From: Isoptericola halotolerans
GTDB taxonomy: Bacteria; Actinomycetota; Actinomycetes; Actinomycetales; Cellulomonadaceae
Direction of reading: 5' to 3'
DNA length: 64,000 nt
Assembly: GCF_013149785.1 (NCBI RefSeq)
Contig: NZ_JABEZU010000002.1
Span: 186,001 to 250,000 of the forward strand
Made by a program: the position numbers and the translations under genes. The notes under the pieces are model-generated. The model was not told the origin of the DNA. It made no database searches and saw nothing but the letters and a program-made list of their open reading frames with translations. Positions 2,630 through 11,460 of the stretch are shown piece by piece (position 1 is the stretch's first letter; each line of letters opens with the position of its first letter).

Positions 2630-3757
2630 ATGAGCCCCACGACCACGCCCGCCGCGCGCGGCACCGCGACCTCGGATGATACTGACCTGATGGCCGAGAC
2701 CTCTGACCTGCGCGTCCGCGCGCTCGACCCGCTGCCCGCCCCCCGGGCGATGCGCACCGCCCTGCCGCTGGGCACCCAGCGCAGCGACCTGGTGACGACG
2801 TCGCGCCGCGAGGTCCGCGACGTCCTGGTCGGCGAGGACGACCGTCTCGTCGTCATCGTCGGTCCGTGCTCGGTGCACGACCCGGCGGCCGCGCTCGACT
2901 ACGCGCGACGGCTCGCCCCTCTGGCGCGCGAGCTGTCCGACGAGCTGGTCGTGGTCATGCGGGTCTACTTCGAGAAGCCGCGCACCACGGTCGGCTGGAA
3001 GGGCCTCATCAACGACCCGCACCTGGACGGCTCGCACGACGTGCACCACGGCCTGCGGCTCGCCCGCGAGGTGCTGCTCGGTGTGCTGGACGCCGGTGTC
3101 CCGGCCGCGTGCGAGTTCCTCGAGCCGACCTCCCCGCAGTACATCGCCGACGCCGTGACCTGGGGCGCGATCGGTGCGCGCAACGCGGAGTCGCAGGTGC
3201 ACCGCCAGCTCGCGTCCGGCCTGTCGATGCCGATCGGCTTCAAGAACGCGACCGACGGCGACGTGCAGATCGCGGTGGACGGCTGCATCACCGCCGCCAG
3301 CGAGCACACGTTCTTCGGGGCGGACTCCGAGGGCCGCGCGGCCGCCGTCGAGACGGCCGGCAACCCGGACTGCCACGTGATCCTGCGGGGTGGGCGCGGC
3401 GGACCGAACTACGGCGTCGACGACGTCGCTGCCGCCCTGGGCGTGGCCCGCACGTCGGGACTGGGCGGGCCCGTGGAGCAGGGCGTGATCGTGGACGCCT
3501 CGCACGGCAACTCGGGCAAGGACCACGTGCGCCAGGCGGAGGTCGTGCGGGAGATCGCGGCGCGCCTCGCGGACGGTGAGCAGGGGATCACCGGTCTGAT
3601 GCTGGAGAGCTTCCTCGAGGCCGGGGCGCAGAAGCCCGGGCCGCTGGACTCGCTGGTGTACGGCCAGTCGGTCACCGACAAGTGCATGGACTGGGGCACG
3701 ACGGCGGAGCTGCTGGAGCTGCTGGCCGGCGCGGTGCGGTCGCGCCGGGACTCCTGA
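2630..3757 (+). CDS. aroF: 3-deoxy-7-phosphoheptulonate synthase, type I (DAHP synthase)
   Basis: This 375-residue enzyme catalyses the first step of the shikimate pathway, joining phosphoenolpyruvate and erythrose 4-phosphate. The type I family motifs are clear: VVIVGPCSVHDP for the phosphate site, MRVYFEKPRTTVGWKGLINDP, GARNAESQVHRQLASGLSMP, GFKNATDG, ILRGG and DASHGNSGK. The length matches the AroF/G/H group of about 350 residues plus a short disordered N-terminus. ATG 2630 is chosen because AGGAG lies five bases upstream. An aromatic leader peptide and terminator precede the gene, implying control by attenuation in addition to any feedback inhibition. Confidence 0.95.
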   Translation: MSPTTTPAARGTATSDDTDLMAETSDLRVRALDPLPAPRAMRTALPLGTQRSDLVTTSRREVRDVLVGEDDRLVVIVGPCSVHDPAAALDYARRLAPLARELSDELVVVMRVYFEKPRTTVGWKGLINDPHLDGSHDVHHGLRLAREVLLGVLDAGVPAACEFLEPTSPQYIADAVTWGAIGARNAESQVHRQLASGLSMPIGFKNATDGDVQIAVDGCITAASEHTFFGADSEGRAAAVETAGNPDCHVILRGGRGGPNYGVDDVAAALGVARTSGLGGPVEQGVIVDASHGNSGKDHVRQAEVVREIAARLADGEQGITGLMLESFLEAGAQKPGPLDSLVYGQSVTDKCMDWGTTAELLELLAGAVRSRRDS

Positions 3758-3772
3758 CGGCCCCCGCCCGTC

Positions 3773-3826
3773 GTGAGCGTCTCTGTTCGTCAGGAATCGA
3801 CGCCTGAATGCTGACGAACAGAGACG
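3773..3826. repeat. Hairpin repeat, copy 1 (left flank of the DUF559 gene)
   Basis: The first 34 bases are identical to those of the copy at 4881-4937. A 16-bp perfect inverted repeat (3778-3793 with 3811-3826) makes a strong hairpin. It lies between the convergent DAHP synthase and DUF559 genes and probably acts as a two-way terminator. Confidence 0.8.
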
Positions 3827-3834
3827 GTGGCGGC

Positions 3835-4866
3835 TCAACCGAGGCGGAGCACCGCCTCGGGGGGCCACGGGGCAGGCCGCCAGCCGGAGTAGCGGAGGAC
3901 CTTGGCGACCTCCACACCGACACGACCGTTCCACGCGTCGCTGCCGGTGAGGCGGCGCACGACGGTCCGCGAGGTGTCGAGGCGGTTCTGCCGTGCCCGG
4001 TCCCGATAGAGCGCTCGCGGGGTCGAGTGGACGTCCTGCCCGTCGATCTCCACGAGCAGCGTCGTGCCGTCCGGCAGCCGCCACGCCATGTCGACGCGAG
4101 CGAACACCTGCCCGTCGGGTCCGGCGACCTCGAGCTGGAGGGCGTCGGGCGGGAACCCGTCGTCGACGCAGGACAGGCGTGCCCAGGTCTCGGCCGGGGA
4201 CTCGGCGCGAGCGTCGGCCGACGACCACCAGTCGCGGGTGCGCCGCATGCCGCGACGGCGGGCGGCGTCCCGGTGCGTGGTCTCCAGCTCCTGCGGCGTC
4301 AGGAGGCCCTGGTGCAATGCCGAGTCCATGAGCGCGACGGCGTGGCGCCGCCCCACCTGCGGCACTGCCTCGACGAGCGCTCGGGCGACGGGGACGCAGC
4401 GGAAGCCGTCGACGTCGACCCACCGCGCCACCGCTGACCGCCGGAGGCGGACCGGTGGGCGCTCGGCACGGGGTGCGCCGGTCGGCATCGCGACCTCGGG
4501 CGTGATGTCCACCGGAGCGCCCTGGACGCCGTGGAGCACCAGGGCGCAGAGGCCGGTGGCCACCGAGCCAGGATGGGCCAGCAGCCCGAGGACGGCTGCC
4601 CGCCGACGTCGGAGGTCGAGGTCGATGCCGGTCCGTTCGCGCCCGGTCGGTGCGGTGTCGAGCACCCCGCGCACGGGCCGCTCCCACTCCGTGGTGCGCA
4701 GGCGGGCCTGGACCTGCTCCCTGTCCATGCCGGCGAGCAGGCACTGTCGGACGGACAGCAGGCCCTCCTGCCGGGCAGCCAGCGCGAGCAGTGACGCGGC
4801 GAGGGGCTGGGGGCGGCGCGGCACGGATCGAGGCAACCAGATCGCCGGGCGCGCTGCCGCCGCCAT
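3835..4866 (-). CDS. AbiEi-like antitoxin domain / DUF559 (Vsr-like nuclease fold) protein
   Basis: The 343-residue protein starts with a winged-helix type region (about residues 20-70) like AbiEi antitoxin-domain proteins. It ends with a DUF559-type domain around residues 255-325, whose core is LLVEIDGQDVHS followed by DRARQNRL. DUF559 belongs to the PD-(D/E)XK/Vsr-like nuclease superfamily, and the E-x-D-G-x-x-x-H pattern is its usual signature. Such genes are common and repeated in actinobacteria, with no settled function. No AbiEii toxin gene is adjacent. ATG 4866 sits just inside the right-hand hairpin repeat, so gene and repeats look like one cassette. Confidence 0.75.
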   Translation of the reverse strand: MAAAARPAIWLPRSVPRRPQPLAASLLALAARQEGLLSVRQCLLAGMDREQVQARLRTTEWERPVRGVLDTAPTGRERTGIDLDLRRRRAAVLGLLAHPGSVATGLCALVLHGVQGAPVDITPEVAMPTGAPRAERPPVRLRRSAVARWVDVDGFRCVPVARALVEAVPQVGRRHAVALMDSALHQGLLTPQELETTHRDAARRRGMRRTRDWWSSADARAESPAETWARLSCVDDGFPPDALQLEVAGPDGQVFARVDMAWRLPDGTTLLVEIDGQDVHSTPRALYRDRARQNRLDTSRTVVRRLTGSDAWNGRVGVEVAKVLRYSGWRPAPWPPEAVLRLG

Positions 4867-4880
4867 CCACAGCACCTGGC

Positions 4881-4937
4881 GTGAGCGTCTCTGTTCGTCA
4901 GGAATCGACGCCTGGTTCCTGACGAACAGAGACGCTC
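4881..4937. repeat. Hairpin repeat, copy 2 (right flank of the DUF559 gene)
   Basis: A perfect 22-bp inverted repeat (4883-4904 with 4916-4937) surrounds an 11-base loop. The first 34 bases are identical to copy 1. It lies in the 5' region of the minus-strand DUF559 gene and before the sigK promoter, so here it cannot simply be a terminator of the gene it flanks. Confidence 0.85.
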
Positions 4938-4971
4938 GTGCGGTGGGGGTGACGCGCGCCACGGCGGTCCT

Positions 4972-5002
4972 CACCCATCCAGGAAGCCGTCGGCACCGAA
5001 CC
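4972..5002 (+). promoter_or_regulatory. SigK-type promoter upstream of sigK-rskA
   Basis: CACCCATCC (4972-4980) is followed after 16 bases by CGAACC (4997-5002). The same two boxes with the same spacing occur before the fasciclin gene and before dipZ, while the spacers are unrelated. The boxes resemble the CCATCC/CGAA promoter reported for mycobacterial SigK. Its place before sigK implies autoregulation. Confidence 0.75.
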
Positions 5003-5043
5003 ACAGATGTCCCGGACGGTCCGGGACGTGCGACGCGCGACGG

Positions 5044-5652
5044 GTGCAGATCGACCGGATGACTCAGGTACGGCACACTGTGACGGTGCCGCCTTCCCTG
5101 CCGACTCCTGTCGACGATGCCCTCGTGGCGTGCGTCGACGGTGACCCGGCAGCGTTCGGCCCCGTCTACGACGCCCTGGCCCCGGTGGCCTACGGCACGT
5201 CGCTCGGCGTGCTCCGGGACCCGGACCACGCCGCCGAGGTGACCCAGGAGGTGATGGTCGAGGTGTGGCAGACAGCAGCCCGGTTCGACCCCTCGCGCGC
5301 CTCGGCGCGCACCTGGGTCGCGACCCTCGCCCGCCGTCGGGCGGTGGACCGCGTCCGCGCCGAGCAGGCGCGGCGGGACCGGGACCAGCGGGACATCGAC
5401 GGAACCGTCGGGGTCCCCGACCACGACCACGTCGCCGAGGACGTCGAGCGACGTCTCGAGGGCGCCGCCGTGCGCCGGTGCCTCGACTCGCTCACCGTCA
5501 CCCAGCGCGAGGCCGTCGTCGACGCCTACTACGGCGGCCGCACCTACCGCGAGGTCGCGGAGCGGCTCGGCGCCGCCCTGCCCACGGTGAAGTCCCGGAT
5601 CCGCGACGGCCTCGGCCGCCTGCGCGACTGCCTGGGGGTGTCCCGTGGCTGA
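5044..5652 (+). CDS. sigK: ECF RNA polymerase sigma factor, SigK type
   Basis: The roughly 200-residue protein has sigma region 2 (DPDHAAEVTQEVMVEVWQTAARFD) and region 4.2 (YYGGRTYREVAERLGAALPTVKSRIRDGLGRL). It directs RNA polymerase to a small regulon and is held by its membrane anti-sigma factor. The assignment to SigK rests on the adjoining RskA-like gene and on nearby fasciclin and dipZ genes with a shared promoter. GTG 5044, ATG 5059 and GTG 5080 are all possible starts. None has a strong ribosome site, and all lie downstream of the promoter at 4972-5002. It overlaps rskA by 8 bases. Confidence 0.88.
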   Translation: MQIDRMTQVRHTVTVPPSLPTPVDDALVACVDGDPAAFGPVYDALAPVAYGTSLGVLRDPDHAAEVTQEVMVEVWQTAARFDPSRASARTWVATLARRRAVDRVRAEQARRDRDQRDIDGTVGVPDHDHVAEDVERRLEGAAVRRCLDSLTVTQREAVVDAYYGGRTYREVAERLGAALPTVKSRIRDGLGRLRDCLGVSRG

Positions 5653-6430
5653 CAGCACCCGCGACTCCTGGGACCTGATCCCCGCCTACGCCCTCGACGC
5701 GGTCGACGACCTCGAACGCCGCGCGGTCGAGCGTCTCCTCGCGGACGACGCCGAGGCCCGCCGCGCGCTCGACGGGTACCGCGAGGTGGTCGCGGCCTTC
5801 GCCGTCGAGACCGAGCCGCCCGCCCACGTGCGCGCGGCTGTCCTGGACCGGATCGTGGCAGCCTCCGGAGGGACGACGAGCGCCGGTCACGCCGGCACGC
5901 GCGACACCGCCGGGAACGTTCCCGACGACGGCAGGGACGCGACCGGTGAGGCCGGCACGAACGTGGTGCCGATCGCGCCGCGCCGTCGGCGGTGGGCCGC
6001 GGTCGCCGTCGCGGCAGCGGCCGTCGTGGCCGTCGCCGTCCCCACGACCGTGGCGATCCAGGCCACCGTGGAGCAGAACCGCCTGCAGGAGCAGGTCGAC
6101 ACGGTCGCCGAGATGATGGCCGACCCGTCCGCGACCCTGCTGCGCGGCGACGTCGAGGGCGGCGGCTACGCCACGGTGCTCGCGGCGGGCGACGACTTCC
6201 TGTTCAGCGCGGGGGACCTGCCCGACGTCGGTGCCGAGTCCGTCTACCAGCTCTGGCTGGTGGGCGCCGAGGGCGACGTGACCTCGGCCGGCCTCCTCGA
6301 CGTGCAGGACGGCGAGACGGAGCAGCTCGTGCGCGACGCCTCGGGCATCGGCCTGGCGGTCTCCGTGGAGCCCGAGGGCGGTTCGGAGCAGCCGACCACC
6401 GACCCCGTCGTCGTCCTCGCCGAGGGCTGA
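5645..6430 (+). CDS. rskA: Anti-sigma-K factor RskA
   Basis: The 261-residue protein has an N-terminal cytoplasmic anti-sigma region (residues 1-70), beginning with the SWDLIPAYALDAVDDLERRAVE motif typical of RskA. A linker ends in PRRRRW, one transmembrane helix spans about 117-139, and an extracytoplasmic RskA C-terminal domain contains VYQLWLVGAEGDVTSAGLL. In mycobacteria the protein is cleaved in steps to free SigK. GTG 5645 lies inside the end of sigK, so the two are translationally coupled and co-regulated by the promoter at 4972. Confidence 0.9.
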   Translation: MADSTRDSWDLIPAYALDAVDDLERRAVERLLADDAEARRALDGYREVVAAFAVETEPPAHVRAAVLDRIVAASGGTTSAGHAGTRDTAGNVPDDGRDATGEAGTNVVPIAPRRRRWAAVAVAAAAVVAVAVPTTVAIQATVEQNRLQEQVDTVAEMMADPSATLLRGDVEGGGYATVLAAGDDFLFSAGDLPDVGAESVYQLWLVGAEGDVTSAGLLDVQDGETEQLVRDASGIGLAVSVEPEGGSEQPTTDPVVVLAEG

Positions 6431-6458
6431 TCCGAGCCGGGCTCAGAGGTTCAGGAAC

Positions 6459-6839
6459 TCAGAGATCGAGATGGCGGTCGTACCGCACGCCGAACCGGAC
6501 CTCGGTGAGACCGACCTCGTCGGTCCAGGTGCACACCCGGCGCAGGTCGACGACGCTGCGGACGCTGCACACCTCACCCTGCGGGGCGACGGCGTCCGCC
6601 AGCTCCTGAGGGGACGTCCCGGTCCGGGGGAGCACCGAGTACACGAGCCAGCACCCGCCGGAGCCGCAGCTCCTGTCGATCGCGGTGACCTGTGCTCCGT
6701 CGGGCAGGTCGGCGAGGGCGGAGATCGGGGGTGCTGCGGCTTCGTCGACCTCCAGCCAGGCCACCGGCGCGGCCAGGGCCAGCCCGGCGGCGAGGACGGT
6801 CGCGGCGGCGCCGACGACGAGGGTGCGGGTGCGGGGCAT
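6459..6839 (-). CDS. Small exported protein of unknown function
   Basis: The 126-residue product begins MPRTRTLVVGAAATVLAAGLALA, a signal peptide or N-terminal anchor, followed by about 100 residues. Four cysteines (CGSGGC, CSV and CTW) may form two disulfides. I recognise no family. It is convergent with rskA and divergent from the next gene. Its place inside the SigK cluster could be chance, since no SigK-type promoter precedes it. Confidence 0.6.
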   Translation of the reverse strand: MPRTRTLVVGAAATVLAAGLALAAPVAWLEVDEAAAPPISALADLPDGAQVTAIDRSCGSGGCWLVYSVLPRTGTSPQELADAVAPQGEVCSVRSVVDLRRVCTWTDEVGLTEVRFGVRYDRHLDL

Positions 6840-6880
6840 GGCTCGACCCTAGCTTCCGGGGGACGTGCGATCATCGCTCG

Positions 6881-7825
6881 ATGACGGCCATGCCCTGGAT
6901 CCCCGACCCTTCGTGCGGTGACTGGGTGCGCGCCGGCCTGGACCCTGAGGACAGCGACACCTGGACCATCCACGTCTTCGTCCCGCGGGGCTTCGAGGCC
7001 TACGCCAGGGTGCTCCACCCGCTGCGACGGGAGGCCGACGGCGTGGACGTCCGGTGGGCGCAGGTGGCGGCGGCGTTCGGCACGACGATGAGCCCGACGG
7101 CGAACCTGGACCGGCTGTGCCGGCGCCCCTGGTCCGGTGGCGAGGACGTCGTGACGCCGCAGGGCGAGGCGCTCGAGGCGCCTGCCGAGGGCGTCGTCCC
7201 GGCTGCCGTGCTTGCTGCCCTCTCCGAGCACCTCGCGCGGCACTCCACCACCCCGGGCAGCGGTGTCGTGGGCGTCTGGGAAGGGATCGGGGGGCTGGTG
7301 TCCTCAGGAGGCCGGGCCTTGTACGTGGCTCGGATCCCTGCGTGCTGGCTGCGGTGGCTCCTGGTGCCGTGGCGGAGGGTCGTCCGGGCGGCGGGGCGGG
7401 CCGCCTTCGAGCTCAGGCACCGGCGCTGGGCACGCGTCGAGTTCGGGCCCGCGCCGCCGGACCCCGACGCCCCGGCCCCCGGCACCGGCATCCTCGCCGC
7501 CGACGTCGCGGCGGGTCCGCGTCTCGACCTGCCTCACCGGAGCCACATCCTCTTCGCGGCGGGGATCGAGCAGTTCACGGGTCGGGACTGGGCCGACGAC
7601 GCGCCGTGGCTGGACGACGTCGACCGGAGCCAGCGGGACCCGCGGACCCCCGCGATCCTCTGGCCCGAGGATCGCGCGTGGGTGGCGGCGAACGACACGG
7701 ACGACGCGTGGACCCTGGTGGGCGGTTCCCGGGCGCTCGTGGACGCCCTCGTCGCGGACCCGGCGCTCGAGGCGCTGGAGCTGACCGAGGGCGCCGTGCT
7801 CGAGCATGCCGAGCCGGAGCGGTAG
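6881..7825 (+). CDS. Hypothetical cytoplasmic protein
   Basis: The 314-residue product has no signal peptide or membrane segment and no motif that I recognise. The central part is rich in Trp and Arg, and the C-terminus is acidic. ATG 6881 is chosen because it lies 41 bases from the divergent small exported protein and the composition upstream is not protein-like. The gene has no SigK-type promoter although it lies between rskA and the fasciclin gene. It ends before a double hairpin terminator. Confidence 0.65.
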   Translation: MTAMPWIPDPSCGDWVRAGLDPEDSDTWTIHVFVPRGFEAYARVLHPLRREADGVDVRWAQVAAAFGTTMSPTANLDRLCRRPWSGGEDVVTPQGEALEAPAEGVVPAAVLAALSEHLARHSTTPGSGVVGVWEGIGGLVSSGGRALYVARIPACWLRWLLVPWRRVVRAAGRAAFELRHRRWARVEFGPAPPDPDAPAPGTGILAADVAAGPRLDLPHRSHILFAAGIEQFTGRDWADDAPWLDDVDRSQRDPRTPAILWPEDRAWVAANDTDDAWTLVGGSRALVDALVADPALEALELTEGAVLEHAEPER

Positions 7826-7841
7826 GCGACCGCGCACGACG

Positions 7842-7917
7842 GAGCCGGACCGCCTCGTCGGATGACGAGACGGCCCGGCTCGATGGTTCCCGGACACCCC
7901 CTGCGTGCCCGGGAACC
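7842..7917. terminator. Double hairpin terminator between convergent genes
   Basis: Two inverted repeats stand in tandem. The first runs 7842-7881, with GAGCCGG pairing CCGGCTC and CTCGTC pairing GACGAG. The second runs 7885-7917, with GGTTCCCGG pairing CCGGGAACC. They separate the plus-strand hypothetical gene from the minus-strand fasciclin gene and probably work both ways. Confidence 0.7.
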
Positions 7918-7934
7918 GGACCGGGGGGTGACGG

Positions 7935-8642
7935 TCACATGGACGGCATCAGCACCGCGTCGACGAGGTACACGGTCGCGTTCTGCGTCATGACACCACC
8001 GCAGATCACGTTGGCGTCGTTGACCATGAGCTCGTCGCCCGACCCGGTGACCTCGACGGTCTCGCCCTGGACGGTCTCGTGCTCACCCTCGATGTCGGCG
8101 GGCAGGATCTGCCCGGGGACCACGTGGTAGGTGAGGACCGTGGTGAGCAGGTCGGCGTCGGTGGACAGGGTGTCGATCGTGTCGGCGTCGACCGCCGCGA
8201 AGGCGTCGTCCACGGGCGCGAACACGGTGAACTCGTCACCGTTGAGGGTGTCGACCAGGTTCACGTCGGGGTTGAGCTCGCCGCTGACGGCCGACACGAG
8301 CGTGGTGAGCAGCGGGTTGTTGGACGCGGCCACGGCGACCGGGTCGGTCGACATGCCGGTGATCGAGCCGTCGCCCTCGGGGACCTCGTCGGCATAGGCC
8401 TCGCAGCCGGGGCCCACCAGGTTGGCGGCGGGGTCCATGGCCATGTCGTCGCCCATGTCCTCGTCGTCCATGTCGTCCTCCATGTCCTCGGACATGTCGT
8501 CCTCGGGCATGGGTGCCTCTTCGGTCATGGTGTCCTCCGTGGTCTCCGGCATGTCGGAGTCGTCGGAGGAGCACGCGCTGAGGGCCAGCAGGGCCAGGGT
8601 GGCGAAGCCGGCGGCGGCGGTGCGGGTACGAACGTTCTTCAT
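7935..8642 (-). CDS. Fasciclin (FAS1) domain lipoprotein, MPT70/MPT83-like
   Basis: The 235-residue protein has a lipoprotein signal peptide ending LLALSACSS, so it should be anchored outside the membrane at the cysteine. Residues ~25-70 form a Met/Asp/Glu-rich linker. A single FAS1 domain covers ~90-235, with [24 protein letters not shown] and [13 protein letters not shown]. In mycobacteria, FAS1 proteins MPT70 and MPT83 are the main SigK targets. A SigK-type promoter lies at 8695-8725 and an AAGGAGA ribosome site precedes the ATG. The acidic linker is unusual in its regular D/E-D/E-M pattern. Confidence 0.92.
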
Positions 8643-8694
8643 CGGTCTCTCCTTGCCTCGTCGCCCCGACCTCGTCCCGGGGCGCTTCACCAGG

Positions 8695-8725
8695 GGTTCG
8701 AAGCCCGGGCGCCGGTGGATGGGTG
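8695..8725 (-). promoter_or_regulatory. SigK-type promoter upstream of the fasciclin gene
   Basis: Read on the minus strand, CACCCATCC (8725-8717) is followed after 16 bases by CGAACC (8700-8695). Both boxes and the spacing are the same as before sigK and dipZ. The start codon lies about 50 bases downstream. Confidence 0.75.
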
Positions 8726-8790
8726 ACGGACGGAACTTTTTTCGCCGGACGTGCCGCGCGCCCTGGCGGGCGTGGCAGCAGACTCGGAGG

Positions 8791-9411
8791 ATGGGCGACG
8801 AGCAGCGGTTCCGCGGCCAGATCCTGGGGTGCGGCACGACCTCCGGCACGCGGGTGGTGGTGGGGCATTGGAGGGAGTCACCGTTCGGTGCGTTCGCCGA
8901 TGCGATGGTCGAGGACGCCACAGGGCACCGTGTGCTGGTGGCGCCGCCGCAGGTGGCGGGCTTCGTCGCGACGACGTACCGGTTCGACGACGTCGTGGAG
9001 ACGGCGGTGACCGTGCGCGTGGAGGGGCCTCGTGCCGGCCGGGGAGTAGGCCACGTCGTGGTGGAGGCCGGTCCGCTCCGGCTGCGTGCCGCCGTCGGTC
9101 GGCGCACGGCTCTGGGCCGGGTGCTGCGTCTGGTGCCGCCGCGGCTCGCCGCCGCGCCGCAGTTCGCGCTCCTCAGCGACCCGGTGGCACGGGTGCTGCT
9201 GCGCGGTGTGCGGACCCGGGGCAGCGCCGGCAACGGGCGGCACGAGACCTACGGGGCCACGGACATGCATGCCCTCTCGGCGCTGCGGGCGAGCTGGGAC
9301 GGGGGCGACCTGGGGGAGCTGGCGGACGTCGACCCGCCGGTGCGCTTCGGGTTCGGGTCGACGCCGCGCCAGCCGTCCCTGACGCAGGTGGTCACCACCG
9401 TCCGGGGGTGA
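8791..9411 (+). CDS. Hypothetical protein between the fasciclin gene and dipZ
   Basis: The 206-residue protein is mainly predicted beta/alpha with no membrane segment. It contains the phrases [21 protein letters not shown] and [10 protein letters not shown], which I cannot tie to a named family. Small conserved proteins of this kind occur in actinobacteria with a role in neither transport nor signalling that I know of. The ATG lies directly after GGAGG, too close for a normal ribosome site, so the start is uncertain. No SigK-type box precedes it. Confidence 0.6.
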
Positions 9412-9425
9412 GCCCGGAGGCCCCG

Positions 9426-9456
9426 CACCCATCCGTGCGGGCCGCTGCTCCGAACC
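9426..9456 (+). promoter_or_regulatory. SigK-type promoter upstream of dipZ
   Basis: CACCCATCC (9426-9434) is followed after 16 bases by CGAACC (9451-9456), identical to the boxes of sigK and the fasciclin gene. The dipZ ATG at 9463 lies only 6 bases after the -10 box, so transcription should start at or next to the A of ATG and give a leaderless mRNA. Confidence 0.75.
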
Positions 9457-9462
9457 TGCGGC

Positions 9463-11460
9463 ATGGAGACCTTGATCATCATCGGCCTGCTCGGCGGCCT
9501 CATCACCGGGATCTCACCGTGCATCCTGCCGATGCTGCCGGTGATCTTCTTCGCCGGGGGCGTCGAGGGTGCACGGGACCGCGGCACGGGCAAGGACGCG
9601 GACGACGGCGGCCCGGACGCCGCGCAGGACGCTGAGGCGGACGCTCGGGGCGGCGAGAGCGAGGGCGTCAGTCCGGCGCTGTTCGCGGGCGCCCCGTCGG
9701 CGGTGCAGATCGGCCGCTCCGGTCAGGTCACCAGCGGCCCGCCGACCGGCCGTGCCGGCACGGTGACGCTGCCGCTCTCGGTGGACGAGCCGCCCTCGTC
9801 CTCGCGGCGTGGTCGTGCGTCGGGAGGAGGCGGCCGCAGCACGGGCCGGCCGGGCCGGTCGTGGCGCCCGTACCTGGTGATCGCGGGCCTGGTGCTGAGC
9901 TTCAGCGTCTTCACGCTGCTCGGCTCGCTGCTGCTCACCGCCCTCGGTCTGCCGCAGGACCTGCTGCGCTGGCTCGGGATCACGCTGCTCACCGCGATCG
10001 GTGTGGGCATGATCGTGCCCCGCTTCGAGGAGGTCCTGGAACGACCGTTCCAGCGCATCGCCGCCTTCGGTTCGCGCAAGGGGGCGGCCCGCCAGGACCG
10101 GGGGGCGTTCCTGCTGGGGCTGGGCCTGGGCGTGCTGTACGTGCCGTGCGCCGGGCCGGTGCTGGCGGCCATCACGGTGGCGGGCGCGACGGGGAACATC
10201 GGGCCGGGCACGGTCGCCCTGACCGTGAGCTTCGCCGTCGGCGCCGCGATCCCGCTCCTGGTGTTCGCGCTGGCCGGCCGTCGCGTCGCCGAGCGGGTCC
10301 GCGGGTTCCAGCGCCACCAGCGGGGGATCCGCGTCACGGGCGGCGTCGTGATGATCGTCCTCGCCGTGGGGCTCGCCTACGACGTGCCGGCCCAGATCCA
10401 GCGGGCGCTGCCGGACTACACCGGCGCCCTGCAGCAGCAGGTCGACCAGAACGAGTCGGTCCAGGAGGCCCTGGAGCTCGGCGGCATCGTCACCGACGTC
10501 AACCGGGAGCTGTCGAACTGCACCACCGGGTCGCCCGAGCTGGCGGAGTGCGGCACCGCCCCGCCGCTGACGGGCATCACCCAGTGGCTGAACACCCCCG
10601 GGGACCAGCCCGTCGAGCTGGAGGACCTGCGCGGCAAGGTGGTGCTCATCGACTTCTGGACGTACTCGTGCATCAACTGCCAGCGCGCCATCCCGCACAT
10701 CGCCGACTGGTACGAGAAGTATCAGGACGCCGGGCTGGAGGTGATCGGGGTGCACACCCCCGAGTTCGCGTTCGAGCGCGAGACCCGCAACGTGGTCGCG
10801 GGCGCGGAGGACCTGGGCGTGGTGTACCCGATCGCGCAGGACAACTCCTACTCGACGTGGACGACCTACCGGAACCGGTACTGGCCGGCGGAGTACCTCA
10901 TCGACGCGGACGGCACCGTGCGCTACCTGAAGTTCGGTGAGGGGGACTACGACGTCACCGAGCAGCACATCCGTGACCTGCTGCAGGCGGCAGACCCGGA
11001 CGTCGAGCTGCCGCCGCCCTCCGAGGTGCTCGACACGACCCCGGAGGACGAGACGACGCCCGAGACGTACCTGGCGCTGAACAAGGTGTTCAACTACGCG
11101 GGCCCGACGCCGTACGGCAGCGGCGAGGCGGAGTTCGAGCCGGCGCAGGAGCAGCTTCAGGACACCTTCTCGCTGGACGGCACGTGGGAGCTCGACTTCC
11201 AGGGTGCGACGGCGGTGTCCGACCACGCCACGTTGCGCCTGGCCTACCAGGCGACCGACGTGTTCACGGTGCTCGGCGGCGAGGGCACCGTCACCGCCCG
11301 GGTGGTCGCGCCCGACGGGACGGTGCGCTCCGAGGAGGAGATCGCCGTCGGCGGCAACCCGACGCTGTACGAGGTGGTGCGGGGCGACGGCCCGAGCGAG
11401 GGCCTCGTCGAGCTCGACGTCCCCGCCGGGGTGTCGGTGTACACGTTCACCTTCGGGTGA
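9463..11460 (+). CDS. dipZ: DipZ: DsbD/CcdA-type thiol transporter fused to thioredoxin-like domain
   Basis: The 665-residue protein begins with a CcdA/DsbD membrane region whose two redox cysteines are in SPCILPMLP (Cys20) and VPCAGPVLA (Cys229). A TlpA/thioredoxin-like domain follows with DFWTYSCINCQRAIPHI (Cys403, Cys406), and a C-terminal beta domain from about residue 530 is typical of DipZ. It should carry reducing equivalents across the membrane to extracytoplasmic disulfides. A low-complexity segment of about 90 residues (~40-130) separates the first and second membrane helices, longer than usual. dipZ is a SigK target in mycobacteria, and the promoter at 9426 supports that here. Confidence 0.92.
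   Translation: METLIIIGLLGGLITGISPCILPMLPVIFFAGGVEGARDRGTGKDADDGGPDAAQDAEADARGGESEGVSPALFAGAPSAVQIGRSGQVTSGPPTGRAGTVTLPLSVDEPPSSSRRGRASGGGGRSTGRPGRSWRPYLVIAGLVLSFSVFTLLGSLLLTALGLPQDLLRWLGITLLTAIGVGMIVPRFEEVLERPFQRIAAFGSRKGAARQDRGAFLLGLGLGVLYVPCAGPVLAAITVAGATGNIGPGTVALTVSFAVGAAIPLLVFALAGRRVAERVRGFQRHQRGIRVTGGVVMIVLAVGLAYDVPAQIQRALPDYTGALQQQVDQNESVQEALELGGIVTDVNRELSNCTTGSPELAECGTAPPLTGITQWLNTPGDQPVELEDLRGKVVLIDFWTYSCINCQRAIPHIADWYEKYQDAGLEVIGVHTPEFAFERETRNVVAGAEDLGVVYPIAQDNSYSTWTTYRNRYWPAEYLIDADGTVRYLKFGEGDYDVTEQHIRDLLQAADPDVELPPPSEVLDTTPEDETTPETYLALNKVFNYAGPTPYGSGEAEFEPAQEQLQDTFSLDGTWELDFQGATAVSDHATLRLAYQATDVFTVLGGEGTVTARVVAPDGTVRSEEEIAVGGNPTLYEVVRGDGPSEGLVELDVPAGVSVYTFTFG

Follow-up and report, generated by a model that had tools for sequence, protein, structure and literature searches.

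The DNA analyzed in this study is a 64-kb stretch of Isoptericola halotolerans (contig 2, positions 186001-250000), referred to below as the window, in which the gene for a SigK-type extracytoplasmic function (ECF) sigma factor lies close to rskA, to a gene for a fasciclin-domain protein and to dipZ. The three units sigK-rskA, the fasciclin lipoprotein gene and dipZ are each preceded by a copy of the box CACCCATCC-N16-CGAACC, and very probably constitute a SigK-RskA (ECF18/19) regulon. The boxes and genes are located in the window as follows.

4972..5002, plus strand: SigK box before sigK-rskA, an exact pattern match, with the core CCATCC at 4975-4980 and CGAA at 4997-5000
5059..5652, plus strand: sigK, ECF sigma factor SigK (Pfam Sigma70_r2/r4, NCBIfam NF007228, PDB 4nqw_A)
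5645..6430, plus strand: rskA, anti-sigma-K factor, its start overlapping the end of sigK (Pfam RskA_C)
7935..8642, minus strand: gene for an MPT70/MPT83-like fasciclin-domain protein, a predicted lipoprotein (Pfam Fasciclin, E 1.9e-27)
8695..8725, minus strand: SigK box before the fasciclin gene, an exact pattern match, with the ATG 54 nt after CGAA
9426..9456, plus strand: SigK box before dipZ, an exact pattern match, with the ATG exactly 8 nt after CGAA
9463..11460, plus strand: dipZ, a fusion of a CcdA-type membrane domain and a TlpA/thioredoxin-like ectodomain (Pfam, PDB)

SigK scores 226.7 bits against NCBIfam NF007228, just above the cut-off of 226, and its best match in the PDB is SigK of Mycobacterium tuberculosis (4nqw_A, E 2.6e-41), with which both cysteines of the redox pair (M. 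tuberculosis residues 133 and 183) are aligned; the significance of two conserved SigK cysteines is treated in PMC7509140. An alternative GTG start of sigK lies at 5044. The RskA_C domain of the adjoining protein scores 74.1 bits (cut-off 29.4), and the match to the RskA chain 4nqw_B is weak (E 0.0013). The fasciclin protein is closest in the PDB to MPT70 (1nyo, E 3.1e-58); its linker is rich in Met, Asp and Glu, with nine Met in residues 24-75, and a lipobox-like LSAC, judged by eye, suggests a lipoprotein. DipZ matches the Pfam families DsbD_TM, AhpC-TSA and Thioredoxin_10 and is closest to M. tuberculosis DipZ (5cyy, E 1.5e-115). Three genes in addition to the fasciclin gene lie between rskA and dipZ.

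An earlier note on this DNA had placed three identical boxes at 4972-5002 (plus strand), 8695-8725 (minus strand) and 9426-9456 (plus strand); the coordinates, strands and bases all agree with the present search, and the three copies share every one of the 15 box bases and a spacing of 16 nt. A pattern search of the window found exactly three copies, in agreement with the scan by eye on which the note had relied, and exactly three also occur in the whole host genome (3,968,934 bases in six contigs). When the window was shuffled 100 times with its dinucleotide composition kept, no copy arose. When up to three mismatches were allowed, 154 sites were found in the genome, of which three were exact, none had one mismatch, ten had two and 141 had three, compared with 72 sites for the reversed pattern under the same limit. 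The gap between the exact sites and those with two mismatches is the pattern expected of a closed set. As the earlier note pointed out, the boxes resemble the mycobacterial SigK promoter (CCATCC...CGAA); the literature search returned no paper with this sequence.

The conservation of the boxes was analyzed in 101 genomes of the Cellulomonas family, 58 of which contain sigK (E 1e-20). In 59 stretches around sigK, an exact core box with a spacing of N15-17 was sought near gene starts and was found for 45 of the 59 sigK genes and for all 42 fasciclin genes. A DipZ match was present in 37 of these stretches; where the N-terminus could be located, in 35 of them, the gap from CGAA to the ATG is always 8 nt, the core being exact in 30 and having one mismatch in five. 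Furthermore, when 36 family dipZ genes were aligned on the ATG, without using the motif to choose them, CGAA occupied positions -12 to -9 in every one, and column conservation was 98% for CCATCC and 100% for CGAA, compared with 66% for the spacer and 45% for the upstream region. The flanking C residues of the box are nearly invariant in family promoters, and the extended consensus is ACCCATCCG...GC..CGAACC. Two details of the earlier note are modified by these data. The spacers do differ, as it had stated, but they are not wholly unrelated: GC at spacer positions 13-14 is common to all three copies in the window and, in the sigK and fasciclin promoters of the family, is conserved at 81-96% (in dipZ, G 92% and C 61%). 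Similarly, the CCATCC/CGAACC part of the box is kept in relatives, whereas the first C of CACCCATCC is in the minority there, G occupying this position in 57-67%.

The short interval before dipZ has a further implication. Transcription from ECF promoters begins approximately 6-9 nt past the -10 element and, because the ATG lies 8 nt after CGAA, the dipZ transcript would start at or beside the ATG and is probably leaderless. In a wider sample of 80 named dipZ loci, mainly from other actinobacteria, the N-terminus was located for 70, of which 33 have a box of up to one mismatch within 90 nt. The start codon follows CGAA by 8-9 nt in 12 of the 33 (three from the family, seven from Mycobacterium or Mycolicibacterium, one from Lentzea and one from Sinomonas); Microbacterium and other dipZ genes have longer gaps, the values of which depend on the start codon chosen. 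The predicted leaderless layout is therefore common to some mycobacteria, yet not universal. No paper joining leaderless, sigK and dipZ was found in the literature search.

The boxes and their target genes also co-occur with sigK. The 58 genomes with sigK contain 184 copies of CCATCC-N16-CGAACC (3.17 each) and the 43 without it contain 19 (0.44 each), while the reversed pattern occurs eight times over all 101 genomes. Of the 101 genomes, 43 encode a fasciclin relative (E 1e-20) and 38 a DipZ relative (E 1e-100), and all of these contain sigK.

Several observations weigh against a SigK regulon of this kind. A proximal exact box was absent from 14 of the 59 family sigK genes, and the RskA_N domain of the window protein, at 26.0 bits, falls slightly under the Pfam cut-off of 27. 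Genomes without sigK are not free of boxes: at 0.44 each, they exceed the reversed control (8 in 101), and in one of them, G047, an exact core box accompanies a CHRD gene. In addition, the co-occurrence counts come from kindred genomes with kinship ignored, and their p-values make the evidence look stronger than it is, although the direction is clear. In another genome without sigK, G033, the box precedes an unnamed lipoprotein with an internal duplication (described below) and adjoins a contig end, so an assembly gap is possible.

With these points taken into account, the attribution to SigK made by the earlier note is correct at the level of sequence, in view of the identity of SigK, the conservation of the boxes in orthologues and their co-occurrence with sigK. 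In the proposed mechanism, RskA would keep SigK at the membrane until an envelope signal frees it to join RNA polymerase; in M. tuberculosis, this release involves proteolysis through Rip1. The holoenzyme would then recognize ACCCATCC(G)-N16-CGAACC and transcribe its own operon, resulting in positive autoregulation, together with the MPT70/MPT83-kind fasciclin lipoprotein gene and dipZ. DipZ likely carries reducing equivalents over the membrane to extracytoplasmic thiols, and the disulfide of the fasciclin protein is one plausible client.

The size of the regulon is less certain than its nature. The earlier note counted three members, which is correct as far as strict boxes in this genome go; as relatives carry more members, the number is only a lower bound. 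An alternative is that the boxes are real promoters and that the regulon of this genome itself exceeds three, with extra members behind degenerate or differently spaced boxes; this is a serious possibility, although we lean against it. Relatives use variants with N17 spacing, CCGTCC or CAATCC, and boxes also stand upstream of their CHRD and DUF4383 genes; the host genome has ten two-mismatch sites as well as matches to the core alone. Within the window, CCATCC-N16-CGAA with up to one mismatch was found five times (3.44 expected), the two matches beyond the three boxes both being mismatched. Over the whole genome, the bare 10-base core occurs nine times, compared with once for the reversed control. 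Three of the six sites other than the boxes lie 10-15 nt upstream of an ATG that begins an open frame of at least 220 codons.

L002: bare-core site in the host genome, 10-15 nt before the ATG of a gene for a PAS-ANTAR protein
L003: bare-core site in the host genome, with the ATG of an unassigned frame (317 codons) 10-15 nt downstream
L008: bare-core site in the host genome, 10-15 nt before the ATG of a flavin monooxygenase gene

However, the genome contains no one-mismatch site, and none of the six other core sites has C before CCATCC or CC after CGAA. L008 was rejected as a further member because the box is missing from all 13 genus orthologues. The L002 and L003 sites, which lie 10 and 14 nt before the ATG, respectively, without the conserved flanking bases, are disfavored as members by these flanks only. 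Furthermore, no CHRD relative was found in the host genome at E 1e-5, compared with 27 of the 101 family genomes, and no DUF4383 relative was found with one distant query that had no positive control in the genus.

It is improbable that the boxes are read by another ECF sigma factor or by a repressor instead of SigK. ECF promoters may overlap between sigma factors, and the few boxes in genomes without sigK, including that before the CHRD gene of G047, would fit such a reader. However, the host genome encodes a single SigK-like protein (E 1e-20), the box number, fasciclin and DipZ all track the presence of sigK, and a two-part box with fixed spacing and a fixed distance to the dipZ ATG has the layout of a promoter rather than an operator. 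That the three boxes are recent, functionally uninformative copies of one duplicated promoter fragment is highly improbable, since, despite the identity of 15 of 15 bases, the spacers and flanks differ among the boxes, and in 36 dipZ relatives the boxes are kept while the upstream sequence drifts to a top-base frequency of 45%.

The additional targets of SigK suggested by the boxes in relatives were characterized further. Among the distal boxes listed, 41 were chosen, so that the following counts are lower bounds for the family. Of these 41, 27 precede genes of recognizable kinds: 15 CHRD, nine DUF4383 (one of them a weak 30-residue match), one duplicated lipoprotein, one DUF1775 and one CopC. 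Two of these rows, DUF1775 and CopC, as well as one to three of the CHRD/DUF4383 rows, are the query proteins themselves, their families having been assigned via Pfam. Regions of 1000 nt upstream of the same 41 boxes gave one match. The reverse test on CHRD is stronger because the genes were picked by protein search and not by box: CHRD genes were found in 27 of the 101 genomes (31 rows, 30 genes fetched), and 29 of the 30 secreted CHRD genes (L263-L292) have a box of up to one mismatch, exact in 26. As a separate observation, lone boxes in relatives precede DUF1775, CopC and Rieske-domain genes (L154, L165, L168), with a possible metal or redox link.

In nine sigK stretches without fasciclin and dipZ genes, the box precedes a gene for a lipoprotein of 429-440 residues upstream of sigK.

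Duplicated lipoprotein loci: L106 (8789-10075), L107, L109, L115, L117, L118, L121, L122 and L124

This protein has an internal duplication and conserved histidines, and gave no significant Pfam match (three scanned) and no NCBIfam match (two scanned). The nine genomes contain no fasciclin relative (E 1e-20) and no DipZ relative (E 1e-100), which suggests that the duplicated lipoprotein and the fasciclin/DipZ pair are mutually exclusive. Tentatively, SigK in the Cellulomonas family might drive an exchangeable envelope module that consists of fasciclin and leaderless dipZ or, instead, of the duplicated histidine-bearing lipoprotein, together with secreted CHRD and DUF4383 membrane proteins; the mRNAs for fasciclin and CHRD would carry leader hairpins. 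If this were true, the module, with the isolated CopC and DUF1775 targets, would hint that the SigK signal is thiol or metal (copper) stress outside the cytoplasm; with one CopC and one DUF1775 site behind it, the copper link is only a lead. PMC10449499 reports that SigK of M. tuberculosis plays no part in iron homeostasis. The literature search brought up no description of CHRD, DUF4383 or lipoprotein targets or of the fixed spacing before dipZ, although these may still be published.

Two leaders in the window contain inverted repeats.

5009..5027, plus strand: inverted repeat in the sigK leader, with an 8-bp stem and a 3-nt loop as RNA (z -0.29, unexceptional)
8660..8685, minus strand: hairpin in the leader of the fasciclin mRNA, also conserved among relatives (z -1.3 for the window sequence alone, unexceptional)

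In most relatives, the fasciclin hairpin starts approximately 12 nt after CGAA, with some compensating changes. Stems of at least 6 bp were clearly enriched over upstream controls in fasciclin leaders (38 of 42 versus 23 of 42) and in CHRD leaders (11 of 15 versus 5 of 15), the hairpin sequence of the latter being unlike that of fasciclin. The excess was weak for sigK (25 of 46 versus 14 of 46, p 0.019) and a trend for DUF4383 (7 of 8 versus 4 of 8, p 0.11). The idea that all members of the regulon share a leader hairpin was rejected, as no excess was seen for the duplicated lipoprotein (2 of 10 in both leaders and controls) or for dipZ, for which the controls were higher (14 of 36 versus 23 of 36). 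In the fasciclin alignment, 92.2% of cells pair, compared with 45-59% when the partner is slid, and 15 cells are altered on both sides. Covariation support is only moderate, because neither the three double-change pairs nor the nine further pair types exceed shuffles (138 and 251 of 500 shuffles, respectively, were as high). The hairpin may possibly act as a 5'-end stabilizer, a role proposed with low confidence. No Rfam match was obtained at gathering thresholds for 3700-9600.

Two other features adjoin the promoters. A 206-residue protein without a Pfam or NCBIfam family is encoded between the fasciclin and dipZ promoters (8791-9411); its relatives accompany sigK in four of the five stretches from the genus and in four from another genus, and no SigK box was found before these relatives in the family sigK stretches. 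A hairpin repeat of approximately 50 nt is present in two copies (3777-3826 and 4885-4935) with 30 identical bases, directly upstream of the sigK promoter. The pair flanks a minus-strand gene with weak, sub-cut-off Pfam matches to a restriction-endonuclease-like domain and an AbiEi-type regulator, and a third copy with two mismatches lies on contig 2 at 81316.

The finding is best regarded as a known SigK-RskA regulon in a new host, because the system, its promoters and the conservation of its sites have already been published: the respective papers describe a SigK-dependent promoter for each of mpt83, mpt70 and dipZ in M. tuberculosis (PMC9861118) and SigK sites highly conserved in Actinobacteria (PMC7509140). 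The SigK signal is described there as unknown (PMC7509140) or obscure (PMC9861118). Known mycobacterial antigens are under SigK control. The compact regulon described here, in a relative of Cellulomonas and with recurrent extra targets (CHRD) elsewhere in the family, would offer a non-mycobacterial system in which to seek both signal and function. Full-length DipZ is stated in PMC3078919, citing work from 2008, to be confined to pathogens. This is not the case, because it occurs in 38 of the 101 family genomes and in named Microbacterium, Arthrobacter and Streptomyces records. We take these last records to be from environmental isolates.

The locus resembles the SigK-RskA regulon of M. tuberculosis (sigK-rskA, mpt83-dipZ-mpt70) in encoding a SigK with both redox cysteines, an adjoining rskA, a fasciclin protein nearest to MPT70 and a full-length DipZ, with a separate SigK box before the fasciclin gene and before dipZ (PMC9861118 for M. 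tuberculosis). It differs in that all three units lie within one 6.5-kb stretch, that one MPT70-type fasciclin gene is present in place of the mpt70/mpt83 pair, and that a box lies directly upstream of sigK, whereas autoregulation in M. tuberculosis proceeds via the Rv0449c promoter (PMC7509140). The same paper reports eleven genes for M. tuberculosis, which is more than the members found here. It also describes a minimal mpt83-sigK-rskA cassette in Actinobacteria and Yersinia, which the present locus resembles in having a fasciclin gene with a SigK box near sigK-rskA (PMC7509140); unlike this cassette, the locus includes dipZ with its own box, and three further genes lie between rskA and dipZ.

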